A stretch of 48,184 nucleotides of DNA from Acidithiobacillus montserratensis. GTDB taxonomy: Bacteria > Pseudomonadota > Gammaproteobacteria > Acidithiobacillales > Acidithiobacillaceae. Shown here in pieces: positions 29,132 through 39,940 of this stretch. Every line of letters begins with the position of its first letter. Within the stretch, counting starts at the first letter, position 1. Under the pieces are notes generated by a model, which did no database searches, was not told the origin of the DNA, and worked only from the letters and a program-made list of their open reading frames with translations. The position numbers were made by a program, and so were the translations under genes. The DNA lies in the NCBI RefSeq assembly GCF_018853465.1, contig NZ_JABBOU010000056.1:1-48184 (forward strand), given 5' to 3'.

Positions 29132-29166
29132 CTATAATTGAAAGATAAAGCAGGGAATTTAACAGT

Positions 29167-29186
29167 ATATAAACAAATTATTATAT
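29167..29186. promoter_or_regulatory. A/T-rich inverted repeat upstream of the SCP2 gene
   Basis: ATATAA (29167-29172), 8 bases, TTATAT (29181-29186), 28 bases before the ATG at 29214. A perfect 6-bp dyad in a strongly A/T-rich 80-bp gap. Possible operator of a winged-helix repressor. Confidence 0.35.
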
Positions 29187-29213: not shown

Positions 29214-29606
29214 ATGATGGCAAAATTCATGAGTACGGAATGGATCCGGCTGGTGGGCAAACAGTGGGATACACACCCGGAAATTCAGAAAGATCTGAAA
29301 AATTTCAATGCGACTTGGGAATATTACATCGAAGACCGGCCGGACATTCCCCACGTCATGCTCTTCTGCAAGGCTGGGAAAGTCATTTATGCCGGGCCAT
29401 CCGATGGCCGCCGCCGTGACTTCATCATGTGGACGAGTATGGATAACTGGAAGAAGATCCTCTCCGGTGAGTTGTCGGGTAAAGCCGCCTTGATGACCCG
29501 CAAGCTCAAGTTCAAGGGATCGATGATGACCGCCATGAAATATATGACGCCTTTTAATATCCACTTGAGTATTCTCGGCGAAATTCCCGTCGATTTTGAT
29601 ATTTAA
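29214..29606 (+). CDS. SCP2 sterol-binding-domain protein
   Basis: 130 residues, a stand-alone SCP2 domain: the fold appears as WEYYIEDRPDIPHVMLFCKAGKVIYAGPSDGRRRDFIMWTSMDNWKKILSGELSGKAALMTRKLKFKGSM. SCP2 domains form hydrophobic tunnels for lipids. In ubiquinone synthesis UbiJ and UbiT use them for quinone intermediates. With ubiK and two hydroxylases upstream and ubiD downstream, a UbiJ/UbiT-like role is suggested, but this protein is shorter. A neighbouring dyad and A/T-rich leader suggest a dedicated promoter. The PhnD-like gene follows. Confidence 0.7.
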   Translation: MMAKFMSTEWIRLVGKQWDTHPEIQKDLKNFNATWEYYIEDRPDIPHVMLFCKAGKVIYAGPSDGRRRDFIMWTSMDNWKKILSGELSGKAALMTRKLKFKGSMMTAMKYMTPFNIHLSILGEIPVDFDI

Positions 29607-29616
29607 GGTAAATGCG

Positions 29617-30492
29617 GTGATAAATGAAGAATCGGCAGCCAGTAACAGCATCCTGAACTTTACGGTGGACCCCAATTATTCGGGTAAAAATCTGCCGGGC
29701 TGGTTTCTGATGAATACCTATCTGCAACGTCATCTGGGTCAAGTGATGCATTTCCAGCCCCAGGATGATTTTGACAGTGGCCGAGCGGCCGTGCTTTCCG
29801 GTCAATTTGATCTGGTCTATGCGAACCCCTTCGACTGGGTGCAATATCAGCAGAAGCTGGCGTTCCGGCCCATCGTCAAGCCCCGCAATCATTTTGACGA
29901 AGTGTATTTGTGCGGAAAAGCTGATGGGCCGATGCACAGCCCCGAGGATTTTCCGGAACGCATACGCATTGCCTCGGCACATCCCGGCACGCTGGTCCAT
30001 ATGGTTGGACTGTTTCTGATGGACAAGGCCGATATTGACCGAGCACGCCTGGAGTTTGTGTTTACCGGCAGTTATCAAGGGGTACTCAAAGCCCTCCTGC
30101 AGGGGCAGGCGGACCTGGGTTTTCTGTTTGATGAGGTGTATCTCAGTGCCAGCAAGCTGATTCGCGAGCGTCTGCGCATTATCGATCAGTCGGATGATGC
30201 CTTTGCTTTTCATGCTTTTTGCATCGGCCCCCGCCTGTTTTCGCAGCAGGACATGCTGACCGATCTGCTTTGTGCCATGGATGCGGATGTGCGCGGAAAA
30301 GTGCTGCTGGACGATCTGGGCTTTGCCGGCTTCGAGGCGGTATCGGAAGACGAAATAGCCTGCCTGAGTACCCTGGCCGATGAGTACATCAGTGGTCACG
30401 AAGCCATTGATATTCGGGCCACCTCCAGCCTGGAAGTGGCGGACAGTGCCTTTGTGGTCGCTCGCGAAGATCCCGGGGAGGGGACAAACTAG
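29617..30492 (+). CDS. PhnD/SsuA/transferrin-like substrate-binding protein without signal peptide
   Basis: 291 residues from GTG 29617, chosen because AAGG lies eight bases upstream; a TTG at 29596 would overlap the SCP2 gene. The fold is the type 2 periplasmic-binding-protein family of phosphonate/phosphite binders (motifs VLSGQFDLVYANPFDWVQYQ, ASAHPGTLVHM, GSYQGVLKALLQGQADLGFLFDEVY). No signal peptide, lipobox or membrane segment is present, and no ABC transporter genes are adjacent. It is therefore likely a cytoplasmic sensor or binding protein rather than a transporter subunit. Its coupling to the SCP2 gene is unusual. Confidence 0.65.
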   Translation: MINEESAASNSILNFTVDPNYSGKNLPGWFLMNTYLQRHLGQVMHFQPQDDFDSGRAAVLSGQFDLVYANPFDWVQYQQKLAFRPIVKPRNHFDEVYLCGKADGPMHSPEDFPERIRIASAHPGTLVHMVGLFLMDKADIDRARLEFVFTGSYQGVLKALLQGQADLGFLFDEVYLSASKLIRERLRIIDQSDDAFAFHAFCIGPRLFSQQDMLTDLLCAMDADVRGKVLLDDLGFAGFEAVSEDEIACLSTLADEYISGHEAIDIRATSSLEVADSAFVVAREDPGEGTN

Positions 30493-30516: not shown

Positions 30517-31989
30517 ATGAGCTATCGTGACCTGCGTGCCTTTATTGCCGATCTGGAAAAACGGGACCTGCTGCGTTCTCTCCGGGTGCCCGTATCTCCG
30601 CAACTGGAGATGACAGAAATTTGTGATCGCACTCTCCGGGCCGGTGGCCCCGCAGTGCTATTTCAGCAGGTGAGCGGCTTTAATATGCCGGTGCTGGGAA
30701 ATCTTTTTGGTACGACGCAAAGAGTGGCCCTGGGTATGGGCGCCGAGTCACTGGCGGATTTACGGCAGATCGGTCAATTGCTGTCCTACCTCAAGGAGCC
30801 CGACCCGCCCCGTGGGTTGAAGGACCTATGGCATAAATTGCCGACTCTGCGCAAAGTGCTGTATATGGCGCCGACGACCGTTGCCCGCCCCCCCTGTCAG
30901 GAAGTCATCCTGCGCGGCGATGACGTGGATTTGTCTACTCTGCCGGTACAGACCTGCTGGCCGGAAGATGCCGCCCCGCTCATGACCTGGGGCTTGACCA
31001 TTACCAAGGGTCCGCACAAGCGCCGGGCCAACATGGGTATTTATCGCCAGCAGGTCATTGGCCGCAACCGGGTGATCATGCGCTGGTTGGCGCATCGGGG
31101 TGGGGCACAGGACCTGCGCGAATTTCAGAAGCAGCATCCGGGCGAGCCTTTTCCGGTGGCGGTAGCCTACGGTGCCGATCCGGCAACCATTCTCGCTGCG
31201 GTGATTCCTATTCCGGATACGGTTTCCGAGCATCAGTTTGCCGGATTGTTGCGGGGTGGTCGTACCGAGTTGGCCAAGGCCCTGACGGTACCGCTACAGG
31301 TGCCTGCCCGCGCCGAAATCATTCTGGAAGGTCATATATACCCCGATGATATGGCCGAAGAAGGTCCTTTTGGAGACCATACCGGATACTACAACGAAAC
31401 CCAGAAATTCCCGGTGTTTACCGTGGAAGCCATCACCCATCGGGAAAACCCCATTTATCACAGTACCTATACCGGGCGCCCTCCTGATGAGCCGGCCATT
31501 CTCGGTGCGGCACTGAATGAAGTGTTTGTGCCATTACTGCAGAAGCAATTCCCGGAAATTGTGGATTTTTATCTGCCCCCCGAAGGCTGCTCCTACCGCC
31601 TGGCGGTCGTCAGCATCCGCAAGGGCTATCCGGGGCATGCCAAGCGCGTCATGTTTGGCATCTGGGGATTTCTGCGCCAGTTTATGTATACCAAATTCAT
31701 TATTGTGGTGGATGACGATATCAATGTGCGCAGTTGGGAAGATGTGATCTGGGCCATGACAACCCGGATGGACCCGGTGCGGGATATCACTCTGATTGAA
31801 AATACGCCTATTGATTATCTGGATTTTGCCTCACCTGTGGCGGGTCTGGGTGGCAAGACCGGTTTTGATGCGACCAATAAGATGCCCGGAGAAACCCAGC
31901 GGGAGTGGGGGCGGCCGATTCAGATGACTGCAGCAGTGCGGGAGCGGGTAGACGCCATACTGGGCAGTCTGGATCGGCCACTGTACTGA
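30517..31989 (+). CDS. ubiD: UbiD-family prenylated-FMN decarboxylase
   Basis: 490 residues, typical of E. coli UbiD (497). Recognisable segments are [39 protein letters not shown] (containing the catalytic Glu region) and the late [17 protein letters not shown] block. It decarboxylates 3-octaprenyl-4-hydroxybenzoate in ubiquinone synthesis using prenylated FMN from UbiX. ubiX is not in this window. It may have its own promoter. Confidence 0.95.
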
Positions 31990-32063: not shown

Positions 32064-32137
32064 TGGAGCGGGTGATGGGAATCGAACCCACGTCATGAGC
32101 TTGGGAAGCTCAGGTTCTACCATTGAACTACACCCGC
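32064..32137 (-). tRNA. tRNA-Gly (anticodon CCC)
   Basis: 74 nt with encoded CCA (32064-32066). The 7-bp acceptor stem is GCGGGTG with CACCCGC; the anticodon arm is TGAGC-TTCCCAA-GCTCA, giving CCC at positions 34-36; the T loop is TTCGATT. It reads GGG codons. Confidence 0.95.
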
Positions 32138-32250: not shown

Positions 32251-32553
32251 ATGGAAGAGTTACCAACCAGGGAAGAGGACATCGAACAGGCTTCGCGTTC
32301 TCTGAAGGCCATGGCCCACCCACTGCGTCTCAAAGTACTGTGTGTGTTGGGTTCGGAAGAAATGAGTGTGCAGGATATTGTCTCGGCAGTGGGGACCACC
32401 CAGAGTAATATTTCCCAGCATCTGGCGATCCTGCGCGAAAAAGATATTCTCCGGGCGCGTAAGGATGCCAACAAAGTCTATTATCGGGTCGGTGATCCGC
32501 GAACCTTGCGGCTGATTTCCATGATGAGTGACGTCTTCTGCAGTATCCACTGA
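32251..32553 (+). CDS. ArsR-family regulator of BigR/SqrR persulfide-sensor type
   Basis: 100 residues. Winged helix with AMAHPLRLKVLCVL, the recognition helix TTQSNISQHLAILREKDIL and the wing KDANKVYYRV. Two cysteines, Cys31 and Cys97, are 66 residues apart. BigR (Cys42/Cys108) and SqrR (Cys41/Cys107), which form a tetrasulfide bridge on reaction with persulfides, have the same spacing and surroundings (L-C-x-L and F-C near the end). Metal-binding motifs of ArsR/SmtB are absent. It probably represses itself and the downstream efflux-rhodanese genes. ATG 32251 is chosen; upstream in-frame ATGs lie in or near the tRNA. Confidence 0.8.
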   Translation: MEELPTREEDIEQASRSLKAMAHPLRLKVLCVLGSEEMSVQDIVSAVGTTQSNISQHLAILREKDILRARKDANKVYYRVGDPRTLRLISMMSDVFCSIH

Positions 32554-32620
32554 ACCATCGGAAAATTCCGGGCCGGAGGCGGGAGAATGGAGCATCGGGA
32601 TTAATCTGTTAGATGCACGT

Positions 32621-32649
32621 TTGTGGTATATGGTTATATTCTGATATGC
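32621..32649 (+). promoter_or_regulatory. Candidate promoter/operator of the tolC-RND operon
   Basis: TTGTGG (32621-32626), 17 bases, ATATGC (32644-32649), in a segment with three phased TATAT/ATAT steps, ATATG / TTATATT / GATATG. It lies 100 bases before the TolC ATG and would be a natural site for the ArsR-type repressor. Confidence 0.3.
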
Positions 32650-32750
32650 TCCGCCACCTGCGCTTTTGCCCTGCTGAGCGCGTCGGTAAAAACTGTGTGC
32701 GCTGTTTTCCTGAACAGTTATGGATGTGGCTTGAAGTGGCGGAGATAAGT

Positions 32751-34181
32751 ATGTTTGAAGGTCCCTGTAAAAAATCCCTGGTGCTGCTGACGGCGGCTAT
32801 AGTGGGATCTCTGCTGGCAGTGCCGGCAATGGCCCTGGATTTTAACCAGTGTGTGACTTTAGCTCTCAAGCAGAATCCGCAGATGCTTGCCGCTAAGGCG
32901 CAACAGGCGGAAGCCAAAGGTGCTGTATCTGAGGCGCGGGGTCATTTGCTGCCGAAGCTGAATGCCTCCTTTTCTGCCAGCCAGTCCAATAACGCCCTAA
33001 CGGTTTTTGGAATGAAGCTGTCCCAGCGCCAGGCCACTTTCAATGATTTTGGCGCCAGTCAGTTCAATCCCAGCAACCCCAACAGCCTGAATGTGGCGCC
33101 GGCTGGTCTCAATCTTCCGGGCAATTACCATAATTACGGCACCAAACTCCAACTGGAAATACCCATCTGGAATGGAGGCGAAATCTGGGGACGCCTGAGT
33201 CAGGCCCATGCCATGCTCGAAGCCGCCCAAAGCGGGAATGTCATGGCCCGCCAGAAACTGACTTTTGCCGTGCTTCAGGCATACGACAGTGTCATTGCTG
33301 CTGACAGCGCCATTCAGGTCGCTAAAAAAGCCGAAAAGGCCGCCGAATCCTATGTGAAAACCAGCAAGTTGCTCCTCGACAAGGGAGTTCTGGTCAAAAG
33401 CGACTGGTTGGCGGCGGAAGTGAATCTCGAAAAAACCCGGCTGGCTCTGGAGAACGCCCGGAATGATCATGCCAATGCTTTGGAAAATCTGTCTATTATG
33501 ATCGGCTGGCCGGAAGGGAAGACCCTTGCCGTGGAACAACCCGTGCAACCGCTATTGCCGAGCCATTCCCTGACGGATTTGCAGCGCGAGGCGCTGACCG
33601 ACAATGCCGGTATTATCGCTTTGCAGCACAAGCTGAAAGCCGCGCAGGATGGCATCCAGGTGGCCCGCGCCGCCTACCTCCCTCATGTCAATGCCATGGC
33701 CAACCAGGAATGGAATGGCAGCTCTCTGGGAAATGCTGCACCCTCCTATACCGTTGGTGGTGAAGTGACCTGGAATGTGCTGGATTTTGCCCGAGGCGGC
33801 GGGATGGACCGGGCCCAGGCTGAACGCGAACAAGCCATGGCCACCTTGCAGGAAGCCCAGGATAAACTGCGTTTGCAGGTGGCAGAAGCCTGGCGCAGTG
33901 CCCGGGAGGCGGCGCTGCGCGTGAAAATGCGGCAGCTGGCGGTGCAGCAAATGGAAGAATCCCAACGTCTGGTGCGTTTGCGTTATGAAAATGGGGTCGA
34001 AACCATTACCGGACTGTTACATGGTCAGGCCGAACTGGATCAATCCCGGGCGGAGCTGGTGTCGGCTTATTATGCTGAGGCCGTCCAGCGCGGCGCGCTG
34101 CTGCTGGCTATGGGCAAATTGAATCCGCAAGAAATCGTCGATGTGGCCCCGGTGTCCGTCGTAGAAGGAGTGCAACAATGA
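32751..34181 (+). CDS. TolC-family outer-membrane efflux protein
   Basis: 476 residues. Start ATG 32751 has GGAG six bases upstream and begins a clear signal peptide (cut near AMALDF); an ATG at 32613 in frame would put it internally. Repeated long helices (AAESYVKTSKLLLDKGVLVKSDWLAAEVNLEKTRLALENARNDHANALENLS and its later copy) are the internal duplication of TolC/OEP proteins. It forms the outer-membrane exit duct for the adaptor and RND pump encoded next. It overlaps the adaptor gene by four bases. Confidence 0.9.
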   Translation: MFEGPCKKSLVLLTAAIVGSLLAVPAMALDFNQCVTLALKQNPQMLAAKAQQAEAKGAVSEARGHLLPKLNASFSASQSNNALTVFGMKLSQRQATFNDFGASQFNPSNPNSLNVAPAGLNLPGNYHNYGTKLQLEIPIWNGGEIWGRLSQAHAMLEAAQSGNVMARQKLTFAVLQAYDSVIAADSAIQVAKKAEKAAESYVKTSKLLLDKGVLVKSDWLAAEVNLEKTRLALENARNDHANALENLSIMIGWPEGKTLAVEQPVQPLLPSHSLTDLQREALTDNAGIIALQHKLKAAQDGIQVARAAYLPHVNAMANQEWNGSSLGNAAPSYTVGGEVTWNVLDFARGGGMDRAQAEREQAMATLQEAQDKLRLQVAEAWRSAREAALRVKMRQLAVQQMEESQRLVRLRYENGVETITGLLHGQAELDQSRAELVSAYYAEAVQRGALLLAMGKLNPQEIVDVAPVSVVEGVQQ

Positions 34182-35257
34182 TGAACTGGAAGCGCGGCGC
34201 GCTGGTGTCAGTCATAGTATTGAGCAGTGCCGGCCTGGCTGCTTGCAGTAAATCACCTCCCCGGTCCCCGGCCATCCATCAGCGCGTGAATGCCCCGGTC
34301 ATGCAGATTGGCGGGAAGGATATGGCAGCCTACAGTCAGATTCCCGGTACGGTAATTGCCGCCCAGCAGGTGCAGATCAGTTCGCGGCTCAGTGGTTATA
34401 TTCGCCACCTGAATCTGCGCGAAGGGCAGACCGTCAAAGCGGGCCAGTTACTTTTTGAGGTGGATCCGACCGATGTCCAGGCCCAGGTGCAGCAGGCCCA
34501 GGCGGGTTTGGCGGAAGCCCAGTCCAGTCTCAGCGATGCCCGCTCCAATTATGTGCGTTTCAAGGCGCTCTACGCGCAGCAGGCGATTCCTGAAAAACAA
34601 TGGGATCAGGTGAAATCCGCTTATGCTATGGCCCAGGCGCGTGCTGCTGCAGCCCATGCCGGTATTGCCAGTGCCCAGGCACAGATGCGCTATGCCCGGG
34701 TGACGGCCCCCTTTTCCGGCATCATCATCAATAAGCAGGCGCAAAATGGTGATATGGCGTCGCCGGGACAGCCAGTGCTGACCCTCGCCAATCCCGGTCA
34801 ACTGGAAGTGCGTTTTGCCGCTGGCAGTGCGTTATTCCAGAGCCTGAAAAGGGGCCAGACCCTGGAGGTGCTGGCAGATGGGCGCAGGGTGCCCGCGACG
34901 GTGCTGGATTTGGTGAGTACGGCGGATCCCATGACCCATGCCCACACGGTCAAGCTGAGTTTGCCGGCCGACAGTCATCTGCAGGCAGGAGATTACGTGA
35001 CAGTCGAGGTGCCACTGGCGGCGCGGCAGGTGATGACCGTCCCGGCCAGCGCCTTGCAGGATCGCGCGGGTATTCCGGGAGTTTTTGTAGTGGATGCCCA
35101 CGGTATTGCTCACTACCGCATGGTACGCAGCGGTCCGCAAACGCCCGATGGCGTGGAAATTCTTTCCGGTTTGAGCGCGGGTGAAACCGTGGTGATCGGC
35201 AATGTTGCCGCCGTGAATAATGGCGACCAGATCGATGTCGGGGCAGCCCATGGCTGA
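34178..35257 (+). CDS. RND efflux periplasmic adaptor (HlyD/MFP), lipoprotein
   Basis: 359 residues. A lipoprotein signal with lipobox LAAC (Cys near residue 23) anchors it to the inner membrane. The barrel-sandwich/lipoyl half-motifs (RLSGYIRHLNLREGQTVKAGQLLFEVD and VTAPFSGIIINKQAQNGDMASPGQ) flank a coiled-coil hairpin. The C-terminal beta-barrel and membrane-proximal domains follow. It bridges pump and TolC. Two adjacent ATGs (34178 and 34181) are equally plausible starts. Confidence 0.92.
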   Translation: MMNWKRGALVSVIVLSSAGLAACSKSPPRSPAIHQRVNAPVMQIGGKDMAAYSQIPGTVIAAQQVQISSRLSGYIRHLNLREGQTVKAGQLLFEVDPTDVQAQVQQAQAGLAEAQSSLSDARSNYVRFKALYAQQAIPEKQWDQVKSAYAMAQARAAAAHAGIASAQAQMRYARVTAPFSGIIINKQAQNGDMASPGQPVLTLANPGQLEVRFAAGSALFQSLKRGQTLEVLADGRRVPATVLDLVSTADPMTHAHTVKLSLPADSHLQAGDYVTVEVPLAARQVMTVPASALQDRAGIPGVFVVDAHGIAHYRMVRSGPQTPDGVEILSGLSAGETVVIGNVAAVNNGDQIDVGAAHG

Positions 35258-38200
35258 TCAGCAGCACAAGATGAATCTGGCGGGTCGTCTGGCCCGGTCT
35301 TTTTACCAATCCAAAATTACCGTACTTATCATGATCGCCATTGCCCTCTTCGGGCTCCTGGCGGTAACGGTGACTCCGCGCTTGTATAACCCCGAAATTG
35401 TGGTACCGGCGGCAGAAATATTCGTGATGCGCCCCGGTTCCAACAGTGAGGAAATCCACAATCTGGTGATTCGCCCTCTGGAAGCTCTGATGGCTTCCTT
35501 GCCTGGTGTGCATCATACCTTCGGATATTCGGTCAATGACATGGGTATTGTCACCGTGGAATTCCAGGTGGGCGCCAACGAAGAAAAAAGCCTGCTGGAG
35601 GTCTATAACCAACTCAGTCGCAATATGGACAAAATGCCGCCGGGGACTGAACAGCCGCTGGTGAAATCCATCGGCATCAATGATGTGCCAATCATGACGG
35701 TGACCTTGAGTAGTGCAAAGCTGAATACTTTGGCTTTGCGTCAGGTGGCTATCCGCCTGATGGATCAGTTGCAGAATGTGCCCGATGTAGCCAATGCCAC
35801 CCTGATTGGCGGGGGCAGGCAGGCAGTCAATGTCTGGCTCAACCCGGCCAAACTGGCCAGTACTGGCCTCAGCCTGAAAAATATCCAGCAGTCTCTGCAG
35901 GGCAATAATGTCATTCTTCCCGGCGGACATCTGGTCAATGACAATCATGAAATCCCCTTACGCATCAATGGCGCTTTGGGTTCTGCCCAGGCGGTTGGCA
36001 ATGTGATTATCGGCAGTCATGATGGACAACCCATATTCTTGAAGGATGTCGCACGGATTGAAGAAGGTGCGGCAGAAACTCAAACCGCCACCAGTAACAC
36101 AGCAGGGCTGGCCAACCAGATGCGCTTGCCCGCTGGCACCAGCATGCCCGCAGTGACCATTGCCCTGGCCAAGCGTCCCGGTACCAATGCGGTGACTGTG
36201 GCGGATGCCCTCAAAGCCAAGCTGGGACGCCTGGAGCGGGAAGCCCTGCCTCAGGGAGTGCATGTCAGCATTACCCGTGACTATGGTGCCCGCGCCAATG
36301 ATGCTGTGAGTACCTTGTTCGAGCATCTCAGTATTGCCATCGGCGTAGTGGCCATCATTCTGATGATTTTTCTGGGTTGGCGTGAAGCCGGTATTGTGAT
36401 TTTGACTGTTCCCCTGACCCTGGGAGCGGTACTGGGTATTGGCTGGTTGCTGGGACAGACCATTAACCGTATTACCCTTTTTGCCCTGATTTTGTCGCTG
36501 GGGTTACTGGTGGATGGCGGCATTGTGGTCATTGAAAACATCCATCGTCATTTGCATGGCTGTGCCAAGGGTGGTTTTGCCGATTGCGTCATTCATGCCA
36601 CGAATGAAATCGGTAATCCCACCAATATTGCTACCCTTGCGGTCATTCTGGCTTTTGTGCCCATGGCTTTTGTCACCGGCATGATGGGGCCTTTCATGCT
36701 GCCCATTCCGATTTTTGTACCCATCGCCATGATTGCTTCGGTTCTGCTGGCCTATACGGTGGTTCCCTGGGGAGCCTACCGCTTTCTGCGCCGGAAGGCG
36801 GCCAAGGCAGCAGCTGCGCATGGCGACGAAGATGCTGGTGGCGCCCAGTCTTCCCCGGACGCCCTGCAAAGAGGGTATCTGCGAGTGGTGACACCATTGC
36901 TCAAATCGTCTGGGCGGCGCAATATTTTCTTTCTGGTGGTGGTGATTCTGCTCCTGTTGGCCATGTTGATGCCCTTGTGGCAGTTTGTCCGTCCTCAGGG
37001 AATGAACGGCCCTCTCAGCGCTCTGGGCGTGAACCTGAAAATGCTGCCGGAAGGTAATGTCAGTGATTTCATGATCCAGGTAGATACTCCCGCTGGTACG
37101 GCATTGGATGCTACCGGACAGGTGACGGAAGCCGTGGGCAATGTCCTCAGTCACAATCGCTATATTGAAAATTTCCAGACCTATCTGGGGCATTCAGCAC
37201 CAGTGGATTTTGCCGGACTGGTGCGCGGTGACATGATGCGCGAAGGCAGCAATTACGCCCAGATCCAGATCAATCTGGTGCCCCGTGATGAACGTCCCAT
37301 GTCTCATACGGTGGCTGTGGAAGTCTATAAGGCCTTGCAGGGCGTACGTGAGCGTTTTCCGCAGGCGGTCATCAAGATTTTTGAGGTGCCTCCGGGTCCA
37401 CCCGTGCGCGCCCAGGTGGTTGCCGAACTCTATGGTCCGAACTACCAGAAGCTCCGGGAATTGGCAGGGACTGTAGAGCAGCGTTTCCGGAAAGTCTACG
37501 ACATGATCAATGTCGATGATTCGGTAACGGCTACAGTGCCCGAGTACCAGATTCATGTGGACCGGCAAAAGGCGATGCTGGCTGGTGTGGCTCCGGCTCA
37601 GGTGGCTGAACTGGTGCATGATTATATTGCCGGTACCAAGCTGGGTGCCCTGCACGATCCTTCTGCCCGGGAACCGGTAGATATCATTTTGCGGGTGCCG
37701 CCCCAGGATCGCGCCTGGCGGCAGCAGATTCTCGATCTGCATATTCGCAACAGCCAGGGTCAGCAGGTGGCTTTGTCGAGTATCGTGCAGATCCAGAAAA
37801 CGACACTGGCAAAACCGATTTACGATCGGGACCAGCATCCAGTGGTGTATGTGACCGGTGATCTGATCGGTTCGAGTCCGGTTTATGCGGTTTTGAGTCT
37901 CAATGATTGGCTGGATGACCAGCATCTGGATGGCGTGCATCTGAGCACCGGCAATCTGGGTTTTACGCCTGCCCAACCCGATGATATTACTCATTACCAG
38001 ATTCTCTGGGGGGGCGACATGCGCCTGACTCTGGACGTGTTCCGCGATCTGGGTGCGGCTTTTATTGTAGCTCTGGTGTTTATTTATTTGATGCTGGTGG
38101 CCTACTACCAGTCTTTTATGATGCCGGTGATTGTGATGGGCGCGATTCCGATGACGCTGATCGGCGTGTTTCCCGGACACTGGCTGCTCCATACGCCCTT

Positions 38201-38546
38201 CAATGCCACCTCCATGATCGGAGTGATCGCTCTCGCCGGGGTGGTTGTTCGTAACTCATTATTGTTAATAGATTTTATTATTGATTACCGGCGTCAGGGC
38301 TTTCCGTTGGAAGAGGCGGTTTTACAGGCGGGTGCTGTTCGCTTCCGTCCTATTTTGCTAACCGCGCTGGCTATTATGTTCGGTTCGGCCATCATGGTCA
38401 CCGATCCGGTCTTTGGTGGTTTGGCCGTTTCCTTGATTTTTGGCACCTTCGCCTCCACACTCCTGACATTAGTAGTGATTCCGCTACTGTATTTTTTATG
38501 GGAGCGGCGCCTTGAAAAACAGTCTCAGAGGATGGTACATCAATGA
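35250..38546 (+). CDS. RND efflux transporter permease subunit
   Basis: 1098 residues, with 12 predicted membrane segments and two large periplasmic loops. TM4 reads SLGLLVDGGIVVIENI: one of the paired aspartates of AcrB-type pumps (Asp407/Asp408) is Gly here (Asp422, Gly423). TM10 has LAGVVVRNSLLLIDF, with Arg1001 where AcrB has Lys940. The proton relay therefore differs from the classical HAE-1 group. The substrate is unknown; given the redox-thiol neighbours, a sulfur- or metal-thiol-linked compound is possible. It overlaps the adaptor (8 bases) and DUF2892 gene (4 bases). Confidence 0.9.
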   Translation: MADQQHKMNLAGRLARSFYQSKITVLIMIAIALFGLLAVTVTPRLYNPEIVVPAAEIFVMRPGSNSEEIHNLVIRPLEALMASLPGVHHTFGYSVNDMGIVTVEFQVGANEEKSLLEVYNQLSRNMDKMPPGTEQPLVKSIGINDVPIMTVTLSSAKLNTLALRQVAIRLMDQLQNVPDVANATLIGGGRQAVNVWLNPAKLASTGLSLKNIQQSLQGNNVILPGGHLVNDNHEIPLRINGALGSAQAVGNVIIGSHDGQPIFLKDVARIEEGAAETQTATSNTAGLANQMRLPAGTSMPAVTIALAKRPGTNAVTVADALKAKLGRLEREALPQGVHVSITRDYGARANDAVSTLFEHLSIAIGVVAIILMIFLGWREAGIVILTVPLTLGAVLGIGWLLGQTINRITLFALILSLGLLVDGGIVVIENIHRHLHGCAKGGFADCVIHATNEIGNPTNIATLAVILAFVPMAFVTGMMGPFMLPIPIFVPIAMIASVLLAYTVVPWGAYRFLRRKAAKAAAAHGDEDAGGAQSSPDALQRGYLRVVTPLLKSSGRRNIFFLVVVILLLLAMLMPLWQFVRPQGMNGPLSALGVNLKMLPEGNVSDFMIQVDTPAGTALDATGQVTEAVGNVLSHNRYIENFQTYLGHSAPVDFAGLVRGDMMREGSNYAQIQINLVPRDERPMSHTVAVEVYKALQGVRERFPQAVIKIFEVPPGPPVRAQVVAELYGPNYQKLRELAGTVEQRFRKVYDMINVDDSVTATVPEYQIHVDRQKAMLAGVAPAQVAELVHDYIAGTKLGALHDPSAREPVDIILRVPPQDRAWRQQILDLHIRNSQGQQVALSSIVQIQKTTLAKPIYDRDQHPVVYVTGDLIGSSPVYAVLSLNDWLDDQHLDGVHLSTGNLGFTPAQPDDITHYQILWGGDMRLTLDVFRDLGAAFIVALVFIYLMLVAYYQSFMMPVIVMGAIPMTLIGVFPGHWLLHTPFNATSMIGVIALAGVVVRNSLLLIDFIIDYRRQGFPLEEAVLQAGAVRFRPILLTALAIMFGSAIMVTDPVFGGLAVSLIFGTFASTLLTLVVIPLLYFLWERRLEKQSQRMVHQ

Positions 38547-38764
38547 ATACAGAACGTTGGGTAAGGGTGCTTGCCGGTTTTTTTGTCCTGGTCAGTGTCG
38601 TCCTGGGCGCTCCCGCCAGTCCCATCTTTATCAGTGAATGGTTTCTGGCGTTTACGCTTTTTGTGGGATTCAATTTGTTGCAGAGCGGCTTCACCTGCTT
38701 TTGTCCCCTGGACCGAATTTTGTTGAAACTGGGCGTTCCCGGCTCGGGGTCCTGCGGGAGATAA
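38543..38764 (+). CDS. DUF2892/YgaP-type transmembrane protein
   Basis: 73 residues. Two hydrophobic segments and the pattern FVGFNLLQSGFTCFCPLDRILLKLG match the C-terminal membrane domain of E. coli YgaP (DUF2892), including the conserved Cys-Pro. Additional cysteines in FTCFCPL may be redox-active. It overlaps the pump stop (ATGA) and ends three bases before the rhodanese gene, so the two appear to be a split YgaP. Confidence 0.8.
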   Translation: MNTERWVRVLAGFFVLVSVVLGAPASPIFISEWFLAFTLFVGFNLLQSGFTCFCPLDRILLKLGVPGSGSCGR

Positions 38765-38767
38765 ATC

Positions 38768-39193
38768 ATGGAAGCCAAAATTATCACTTTTGCCCAAGCG
38801 CAATGGCCCCTTTTGCTGGCGGCAGTGGCCTTGATTGTCATGATTTTCAAAGGCCCCCTGACCCGCAAGGCGGCAGGTATCAGTGAAGTGGATGCCAAGA
38901 CCGCTGTTCAGCTCATTAACCACGAAGAAGCCGTGGTCATTGATGTGCGTGAACAAAATGAATGGGCTCAGGGACATCTCCCCGGTGCCCGTCATATCCC
39001 TCTGGGGGATTTGCCCAAGTACATGAAAGATCTGGAAAAACATCGGGGTCACCATGTGATTTGCCAGTGCGCCAGCGGCATGCGTTCGGCTCGGGCCGCC
39101 GCCAGTCTGAAAAAAGCCGGTTTTGACAAAATCTACAGTCTCAAGGGTGGCATCGGCGCCTGGCGCAGTGCCGGTTTGCCGGTCGAAAAATGA
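38768..39193 (+). CDS. Membrane-anchored single-domain rhodanese
   Basis: 141 residues. One N-terminal membrane segment (residues 13-28) is followed by a rhodanese domain: DVREQNEWAQGHLPGARHIPL and the active-site loop CASGMRS with catalytic Cys101. Rhodaneses hold a cysteine persulfide and pass sulfane sulfur to thiols. Membrane anchoring next to an RND pump and DUF2892 protein suggests sulfur trafficking at the inner membrane. The stop overlaps the glutaredoxin start. Confidence 0.9.
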   Translation: MEAKIITFAQAQWPLLLAAVALIVMIFKGPLTRKAAGISEVDAKTAVQLINHEEAVVIDVREQNEWAQGHLPGARHIPLGDLPKYMKDLEKHRGHHVICQCASGMRSARAAASLKKAGFDKIYSLKGGIGAWRSAGLPVEK

Positions 39194-39468
39194 AAGTCGC
39201 CGCTGAAGTCGTCATGTACGCCACGGGAGCCTGCCCCTACTGTCACCGGGCCGAAGCCCTACTGCGCAGCAAGGGGGTTAATCCTACTGTTATCCGCGTC
39301 GATCAAAATCCGGCCCTGCGCCGGGAAATGCAGCAGCGTGCCCACGGTCGCCATACGGTGCCACAGATTTTCATCAATGGATTGCATGTGGGTGGATCTG
39401 ATGATCTGGCCGCATTGAATCATCGCGGTGGGCTGGATAGTCTGTTACAAACGCCTCCCCAGGCTTAG
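39190..39468 (+). CDS. grxC: Glutaredoxin (GrxC-like, CPYC)
   Basis: 92 residues, a class I glutaredoxin with active site ACPYCHRAE, TVPQIFING and GGSDDLAAL (glutathione groove). It starts in a four-base overlap with the rhodanese gene. It reduces mixed disulfides, and in this setting could reduce rhodanese or glutathione persulfides. Confidence 0.9.
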   Translation: MKVAAEVVMYATGACPYCHRAEALLRSKGVNPTVIRVDQNPALRREMQQRAHGRHTVPQIFINGLHVGGSDDLAALNHRGGLDSLLQTPPQA

Positions 39469-39505
39469 TTTCGCACGATGATGGGTATGTTCTCAGGGGG
39501 TTAAA

Positions 39506-39940
39506 ATGACAACATTGATGCTGGTGTGTCCTTCCTGTGGGGGACTGAATCGTGTTCCCCAAGAGCGCTTGGGGGATAAAGCCAAATGTGGTAAATGCCA
39601 TGCCGAACTATTACCTGAGCATCCTGTCAACCTGGATGCCGGACATTTCAATACCTATATCCAGAAAAACGCACTCCCGGTGCTGGTGGACTTTTGGGCT
39701 CCCTGGTGCGGACCCTGCCGGAGTATGGCACCTCAGTTTGAACAGGCTGCACGCACTCTGCGGGGGCGGGTATTGTTTGCCAAGGTCAATACCGAAGCCG
39801 AGCAGTCTCTGGGGGCGCGCTTCCAGATTCGCTCGATCCCGAGCATGCTGCTCTTCCAGAATGGACAGGAAACAGCCCGCGTCAGTGGTGCCATGGGTGC
39901 AGCGGAAATACAGCGCTGGCTAGGGTCCCAGGGGGTGTAG
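39506..39940 (+). CDS. trxC: Thioredoxin 2-type (zinc-ribbon) thioredoxin
   Basis: 144 residues. An N-terminal zinc ribbon (CPSC ... CGKC) precedes a thioredoxin fold with WCGPC and the cis-Pro SIPSM. TrxC is an oxidative-stress thioredoxin, more resistant to oxidation than TrxA. A ribosome site AGGGGG precedes ATG 39506. It lies 37 bases after the glutaredoxin gene and may belong to the same transcript, completing a sulfur-redox set. Confidence 0.93.
   Translation: MTTLMLVCPSCGGLNRVPQERLGDKAKCGKCHAELLPEHPVNLDAGHFNTYIQKNALPVLVDFWAPWCGPCRSMAPQFEQAARTLRGRVLFAKVNTEAEQSLGARFQIRSIPSMLLFQNGQETARVSGAMGAAEIQRWLGSQGV

Follow-up and report, generated by a model that had tools for sequence, protein, structure and literature searches.

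A 48,184-nt stretch of DNA from Acidithiobacillus montserratensis (assembly GCF_018853465.1, contig NZ_JABBOU010000056.1), referred to here in its full length as the window, carries eight co-directional genes on the + strand at positions 32251-39940, in the order arsR-tolC-MFP-RND-DUF2892-rhodanese-grx-trxC. We consider it rather probable that these genes form an operon for export and thiol reduction, controlled by a repressor that responds to sulfane sulfur. Gene content, conservation, two predicted operator sites and the genomic linkage of the pump are observed directly, and the argument below is built upon them.

Organisation of the operon

The first gene, arsR (32251..32553), encodes a 100-aa protein with an HTH_5 domain, a two-cysteine (C31, C97) repressor of the SqrR/BigR/YgaV group. 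It is followed by the components of a tripartite pump: a TolC-type outer membrane protein (32751..34181; OEP, PF02321, 198.7 bits), a periplasmic adaptor of the membrane fusion protein (MFP) type (34178..35257; RND_mfp above cut-off), and a 1098-aa permease of the resistance-nodulation-division (RND) family (35250..38546). The permease matches ACR_tran (PF00873) at 521.6 bits, above the gathering score, and has a predicted fold of the AcrB type. Directly downstream lies a small DUF2892/YgaP-like membrane protein (38543..38764; PF11127 YgaP-like_TM, 43.7 bits against a cut-off of 25.3). The remaining genes encode a rhodanese with an N-terminal hydrophobic segment and the active loop CASGMR (38768..39193; PF00581), for which YibN is the best of the E. 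coli proteins compared; a glutaredoxin 3 of the GrxC type with a CPYC motif (39190..39468; GRX_bact above cut-off, 58% identity to GrxC); and a TrxC with an N-terminal zinc ribbon (39506..39940; TrxC equivalog above cut-off, PF21352).

Profile matches and coordinates confirm all eight gene identities given in a preliminary description of this DNA. The same description had most of the genes overlapping by 4-8 bases, which holds for four of the seven junctions: tolC/MFP, RND/DUF2892 and rhodanese/grx overlap by 4 bases each, and MFP/RND by 8. The others are gaps of 197 (arsR/tolC), 3 (DUF2892/rhodanese) and 37 bases (grx/trxC). No open frame shared by DUF2892 and another protein of the operon was seen in the loci then compared.

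Conservation of the gene order

A match to the RND permease at E <= 1e-100 is present in all 31 genomes of the taxonomic order, the organism's own included, although contig ends interrupt it in two of them (G019, G024). Twenty loci from these genomes were read, and 19 keep the exact eight-gene order on one strand; the exception, L053, has no DUF2892 match. A check proposed at the outset, whether the gene order extends beyond a single strain, is answered in the affirmative. Acidithiobacillus provides the nearest named records.

Compared with the window, the proteins of 18 loci from the same family average 97% identity for ArsR (93-100), followed by RND (84%), DUF2892 (81%) and rhodanese (79%), with TolC, MFP, Grx and TrxC at 66-71%. 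ArsR is the best conserved of the eight proteins, which fits the expectation for a protein with several DNA targets.

A dithiol regulator and its predicted operator

C31 and C97 are the only cysteines of the ArsR protein. They align with C31 and C98 of YgaV, the positions that define the dithiol sulfane-sulfur ArsR group, and are invariant across 13 aligned regulators, E. coli YgaV among them. Judged by its sequence, the protein retains the persulfide-sensor type proposed for it earlier, both cysteines of that group being present. Metal-sensing ArsR proteins use a CxC site, which is absent from this protein, with just its two cysteines. Its top solved relatives are entries 6o8k-6o8o (E 3.6e-16; labelled 'ArsR family'), which we take to be Rhodobacter capsulatus SqrR, and both cysteines are aligned in them; further down the ranking, after NolR, come BigR, 5znx, HlyU and YgaV. 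The NCBIfam equivalog model for BigR (NF040642) gives 73.3 bits against a cut-off of 155, so that we do not name the protein BigR. Around relatives of the pump, the 58 ArsR-domain hits (some from loci fetched twice) comprise 44 with both cysteines, 13 without them and one that is cut. In YgaV, a C31-C98 tetrasulfide forms on sulfide treatment, according to the portion of the source available (PMC9774250).

The gap between arsR and tolC contains a predicted operator, an AT-rich site of 22 bases, GGTATATGGTTATATTCTGATA, at 32625..32646 on the + strand. A strict palindrome pattern found no match anywhere in the window, and a weight matrix was fitted instead on the arsR-tolC gaps of 21 sequences from the taxonomic order. 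The site is present in 21/21 of these fitted sequences (18.9-32.2 bits); here it scores 27.4 bits and is the top-scoring match across the entire window. With one sequence for each of 13 groups, the log-likelihood is 177, compared with 60-68 in 12 dinucleotide-shuffled sets. Held-out gaps carry the site in five of six cases: L110 (14.7 bits), L112 (22.0), L116 (16.8), L117 (13.0) and Gallionella L176 (27.2), the last a near-perfect palindrome. Among the held-out beta gaps alone, the count is four of five at full length and three of five when limited to 230 bases. The interval 32554-32750 had been put forward as the region in which to test binding of the regulator, and the conserved candidate site falls inside it.

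Upstream of arsR, an operator was sought and rejected in 19 Acidithiobacillaceae regions (220 bases each, L043 shorter), where the maximum is 6.9 bits. Scores of 11-15 bits occur at this position in L052, L053, L110, L111, L112 and L117. As no site was found before arsR in the Acidithiobacillaceae, the repressor is probably made steadily in this family. ATTCTAT and GCAAGG blocks are nevertheless conserved there, and are explained by a promoter-like site (32175-32147, - strand) for a tRNA-Gly (CCC) gene that lies upstream and is divergent from arsR (32064..32137, - strand).

The pump family and its association with DUF2892

Relatives of the pump span Proteobacteria, Bacteroidota, Acidobacteriota and Nitrospirota; of at least 596 confirmed candidates, the best 80 were kept. 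A DUF2892 gene lies within 6 kb of the pump in 61/106 loci of the clade, against 0/20 in a different RND clade that served as control (Fisher p 3e-7), and a two-cysteine ArsR gene in 19/106 against 0/20 (Fisher p 0.03); both p values are too good, since the loci are related. At least one pair of the 106 (L102, L121) has an identical pump sequence. One contig (L108) begins inside the operon, and the missing ArsR there is uninformative. Directly downstream of the pump, DUF2892 is found in 43 of 80 named loci, 28 of 30 from the order, 10 of 26 from the class and 0 of 22 control loci, these 22 being the part of 30 that passed the RND profile (in the 6-kb count all 20 fetched were scored). C54 of DUF2892 is invariant in all 91 aligned rows, in which some loci appear twice. 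A quick tree of the pumps requires at least three gains or losses of the full gene set. The organism's own genome holds a second RND paralogue (C152), with a DUF2892 gene about 4 kb off and non-adjacent.

Some relatives have sulfur-related genes near the pump. These include Blh-like persulfide dioxygenases in L183 and L184 (380 and 371 bits; the cut-off of 625 applies to a longer fusion) and flavoproteins resembling sulfide:quinone oxidoreductase (SQR) in L153 and L163 (104 and 89 bits; cut-off 525).

Several other arrangements were seen around RND pumps. In Bacteroidota, pump and DUF2892 are separated by an open frame that resembles P-II and is about 105 aa long (L131:11462-11779, L142:3129-3455), with one cluster comprising 11 loci; the L131 frame has a weak P-II match (20.1 bits, under the cut-off) and the L142 frame has no Pfam match. 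On contig C124 of the organism's own genome (L202), another ArsR-family gene lies near a different RND pump, among frames that by eye resemble a DsrE protein, a major facilitator superfamily transporter, a DsbD protein and two disulfide-isomerase genes. Plasmid loci L235-L237 carry more distant relatives (43-45% identity), whose neighbours are TetR or AraC regulators and AarF/UbiB or lipid genes; DUF2892 is not listed there. Consequently, not all relatives of the pump are tied to sulfur.

Likely origin of the rhodanese and glutaredoxin genes

The rhodanese and glutaredoxin genes correspond to the yibN-grxC pair: a homologous rhodanese and Grx3 in preserved order. In E. coli, gpmM-envC is divergent from yibN-grxC-secB-gpsA, a neighbourhood that shares with our operon these two adjacent genes but is without pump, ArsR, DUF2892 and TrxC. 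Comparison with the E. coli proteins covered eight loci of relatives, and in 8/8 of them homologues of envC and gpmM precede arsR on the opposite strand and yibN-grxC follows the pump. They come from family f2 of the taxonomic order (L052, L053), from beta or related metagenome-assembled genomes (L110, L111, L112, L116, L117) and from Gallionella (L176). The six other than L110 and L112 also carry secB and gpsA farther along, and trmL is seen in four of the eight. From this gene set, L109, L041 and L045 have just yibN-grxC-trxC. Probably a regulator-pump-DUF2892 block was inserted ahead of yibN-grxC, and the whole set moved later in the Acidithiobacillaceae.

In the Gallionella locus, ArsR is 67% identical to that of the window and the gap holds the operator, while the pump, from a different subclade, shows only 37% identity. 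DUF2892 and the rhodanese are separated there by a 592-aa frame. It seems that the pump was exchanged here and the genomic setting retained.

A second site and possible further targets

The next best match in the window, at 21.1 bits, is an operator-like site at 29164..29185 (+ strand). It precedes a neighbouring operon on the same strand, comprising genes for an SCP2-domain protein (29217..29606, start possibly 29214; PF02036, 56 bits), a PhnD-like (Phosphonate-bd) protein whose start codon is uncertain (29614..30492; PF12974, 136.7 bits) and a UbiD decarboxylase (30517..31989; PF01977, PF20695, PF20696). Of 16 regions fetched, 14 contain SCP2, as does the window, and within the family the protein has 87-100% identity, close to the conservation of ArsR. 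The second site reaches at least 12 bits in 12 of 15 available upstream regions, with 0.44 expected from shuffles; the threshold was set post hoc, with the scores already seen, and three of the 12 score 12.3-13.1 bits. Across 18 loci of the order, a score of 12 bits is reached by 42 of 2598 scanned intervals, those in the arsR-tolC gaps among them. These sequence comparisons suggest that the SCP2-PhnD-UbiD genes probably share the ArsR regulon.

Matches to the operator pattern with up to two mismatches number 8 in the organism's own genome, compared with 5 for a reversed control. In the 31 genomes of the order there are 96 against 30 (column sums), and the surplus includes many arsR-tolC sites. 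Among 10 stretches around pattern matches, one is the SCP2 site and three are one shared helicase site. Targets beyond the SCP2 operon are possible, and we claim none.

Two recurrent sites may be recorded here. Several genomes within the genus have the first, which differs from the pattern by one or two mismatches, ahead of a DEAD-box-like helicase gene (L298:3484-3503, L289:3357-3376, L294:3010-3029). The other, with two mismatches, lies between two genes that by eye resemble TonB-dependent receptors, in another subgroup of the genus (L291:3057-3076, L292:2981-3000).

Relation to described systems

The regulator resembles SqrR, BigR, YgaV, SoxR and sHdrR in its fold, its length, both conserved cysteines and its position adjoining sulfur-handling genes. 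It differs from them in its BigR model score (73 bits, cut-off 155) and in an operator without ATTC-N8-GAAT. YgaV represses its own operon, whereas no operator was found before arsR in the Acidithiobacillaceae. In E. coli ygaVP, too, a dithiol ArsR accompanies a rhodanese and a YgaP-type membrane domain, but there is no pump, YgaP is one fused protein, and the rhodanese of our operon is nearer to YibN.

Among pumps, the closest published parallel concerns Azospira suillum Dsui_3440-3443, which encodes an unknown protein, an RND pump, SQR and an MFP, is highly expressed under H2S oxidation and gives a Bar-seq signal, as reported in 2017 in the available part of PMC5358917. Genes of the RND and adaptor types are common to both operons, and H2S induction is known for that of Azospira, but SQR is part of the Azospira operon, and the available text of the paper is without the words ArsR, rhodanese and glutaredoxin. 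A DUF2892 gene elsewhere in the same genome is about 10-fold up with H2S (PMC5358917, same portion).

The preliminary description held RND efflux under such a sensor to be undescribed. No account of the eight-gene operon was found in the literature searched, supplements excluded (Table S1 and Figure S2 of PMC12423496 among them), and to that extent the claim stands. However, the accessible part of a 2025 neighbourhood survey places RND efflux pumps among the apparent targets of two-cysteine sulfane-sulfur ArsR regulators (PMC12423496), and the H2S-induced RND-SQR-MFP operon of Azospira is in print. The novelty of RND efflux under a sensor of this kind is limited.

Proposed mechanism and alternative explanations

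We propose that reduced ArsR, itself probably made steadily, would sit on the AT-rich operator at 32625-32646 and keep expression of tolC-MFP-RND-DUF2892-rhodanese-grx-trxC low. Persulfides accumulating during sulfur oxidation would form a polysulfide bridge between C31 and C97, as others have shown for YgaV, and release ArsR from the DNA. The YibN-type rhodanese, Grx3 and TrxC could then transfer or reduce bound sulfane sulfur, and the tripartite pump might expel a product of sulfur stress across both membranes. DUF2892, with its one invariant cysteine, may be a partner of the pump or a donor of sulfane sulfur to it. Both sequence and precedent lend the sensor step good support; the pump substrate and the role of DUF2892 are guesses.

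Several observations weigh against this proposal. NolR, which is without the cysteines, ranks second after the 6o8 entries among the solved relatives of ArsR. The gap in L111 is without the site, and a 13.4-bit site lies before arsR instead; the SqrR consensus ATTC-N8-GAAT, as given in the part of PMC9774250 available, is not seen by eye in 32625-32646 or its flanks; and a sigma-70 scan passed no promoter near the predicted operator. SQR, persulfide dioxygenase or TauE genes near the pump number 10/106 against 0/20 (p 0.17), which is not significant alone. Many relatives of the pump have neither ArsR nor DUF2892 within 6 kb, including those of the sulfur oxidisers Hydrogenovibrio (L113) and Thiomicrorhabdus (L115). 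In Azospira, deletion of the operon left the rate of H2S oxidation unchanged, and deletion of the DUF2892 gene did the same with a minor delay at onset, as far as the accessible text of PMC5358917 reports. In favour of the proposal are the H2S induction of that Azospira operon and of the DUF2892 gene, and the RND protein AFE_2367 of A. ferrooxidans, reported in the available portion of one paper as raised in pyrite biofilm relative to iron-grown cells, alongside Hdr and DsrE proteins (PMC6450195). A second paper lists a rhodanese, AFE2364, in its available portion (PMC2621215). Both tags appear to belong to this operon solely by their spacing.

The main rival explanation, which we regard as unlikely, is that the pump exports metal-thiol or metal-sulfide complexes and that sulfane sulfur merely signals their build-up. 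The group to which the organism belongs is used in metal leaching, and glutaredoxins and thioredoxins also serve in metal-thiol stress. Export of metal sulfides is what the authors of the Azospira study proposed for H2S-induced RND pumps (PMC5358917, in the part available). Against this, the CusA/CzcA heavy-metal model TIGR00914 (HME-RND, heavy-metal efflux) gives 281.8 bits with a cut-off of 701.45, below the best multidrug model at 449.5; it is a weak test, as the multidrug models too are under their cut-offs and no RND subfamily model reaches its own. The predicted RND fold (mean pLDDT, the model's own confidence score, 77) appears nearest to AcrB, OqxB and AcrD in a library dominated by AcrB entries, and the nearest solved chains are mostly of the OqxB, MexB and AcrB types, which dominate the PDB, with ZneA lower in the list. 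ArsR, with its two cysteines, has no metal site of the CxC type, and the relatives read showed sulfide or persulfide genes close to the pump, metal genes not being counted.

It is improbable, in our assessment, that the operon encodes a general drug or solvent pump with no tie to sulfur, placed before the housekeeping yibN-grxC genes and under ArsR control by chance. The multidrug RND family does provide the best subfamily model, albeit under its cut-off, yibN-grxC-secB is a housekeeping neighbourhood in E. coli, and some more distant relatives have TetR or AraC regulators. Yet the gene order is kept in 19/20 loci, the set appears on separate branches of the pump tree, with at least three gains or losses, DUF2892 is linked to the pump in 61/106 loci against 0/20, and the Gallionella locus, although its pump is from a different subclade, retains regulator, operator, DUF2892, rhodanese and Grx.

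The 'split YgaP' of the preliminary description, in which DUF2892 and rhodanese would provide one YgaP activity from two genes, is very improbable. In its favour, the two genes are adjacent, and DUF2892 can be aligned to the membrane part of YgaP (35.6% identity, 59 columns). But YgaP proper is a rhodanese fused to the PF11127 domain and these are separate genes; the rhodanese is nearer YibN (76.3 bits, 132 columns) than the YgaP rhodanese domain (46.6 bits), has its own N-terminal membrane segment and belongs to a yibN-grxC pair; in order-f2 and beta relatives, gpmM and yibN-grxC flank the arsR-pump-DUF2892 block; and many loci that have DUF2892 next to the pump contain no rhodanese gene within 6 kb. 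With that element removed, the overall interpretation first offered, sulfane-sulfur sensing coupled to persulfide handling and export, is supported in part, by the two-cysteine regulator, the conserved order and an operator in the gap it named.

Implications

The proposed sulfane-sulfur-responsive operon may be one instance of something broader, as pump relatives beside DUF2892 in distant bacteria hint at an export route for reactive sulfur. We speculate, with more doubt than conviction, that a widespread and unnamed RND subfamily, together with a dedicated small YgaP-like partner, carries sulfane sulfur in some form (polysulfide, organic persulfide or zero-valent sulfur) out through both membranes. 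The Acidithiobacillus operon would then be under a polysulfide-sensing ArsR whose regulon takes in a perhaps quinone-linked SCP2-UbiD operon as well.

What is known of the disposal of excess sulfane sulfur concerns mainly enzymes (SQR, PDO, the persulfide dioxygenase, and rhodanese) and YeeE or TauE transporters (in part PMC12423496, from the portion available). If a sulfane-sulfur sensor does control a tripartite pump, export through both membranes would join these routes, and the orphan DUF2892/YgaP membrane domain would gain a partner. The predicted operator provides a handle on persulfide-responsive genes in Acidithiobacillus, and the system offers a direct test in sulfur-oxidising biomining bacteria. 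If this speculation is true, sulfur oxidisers would have the export of reactive sulfur among their core functions.

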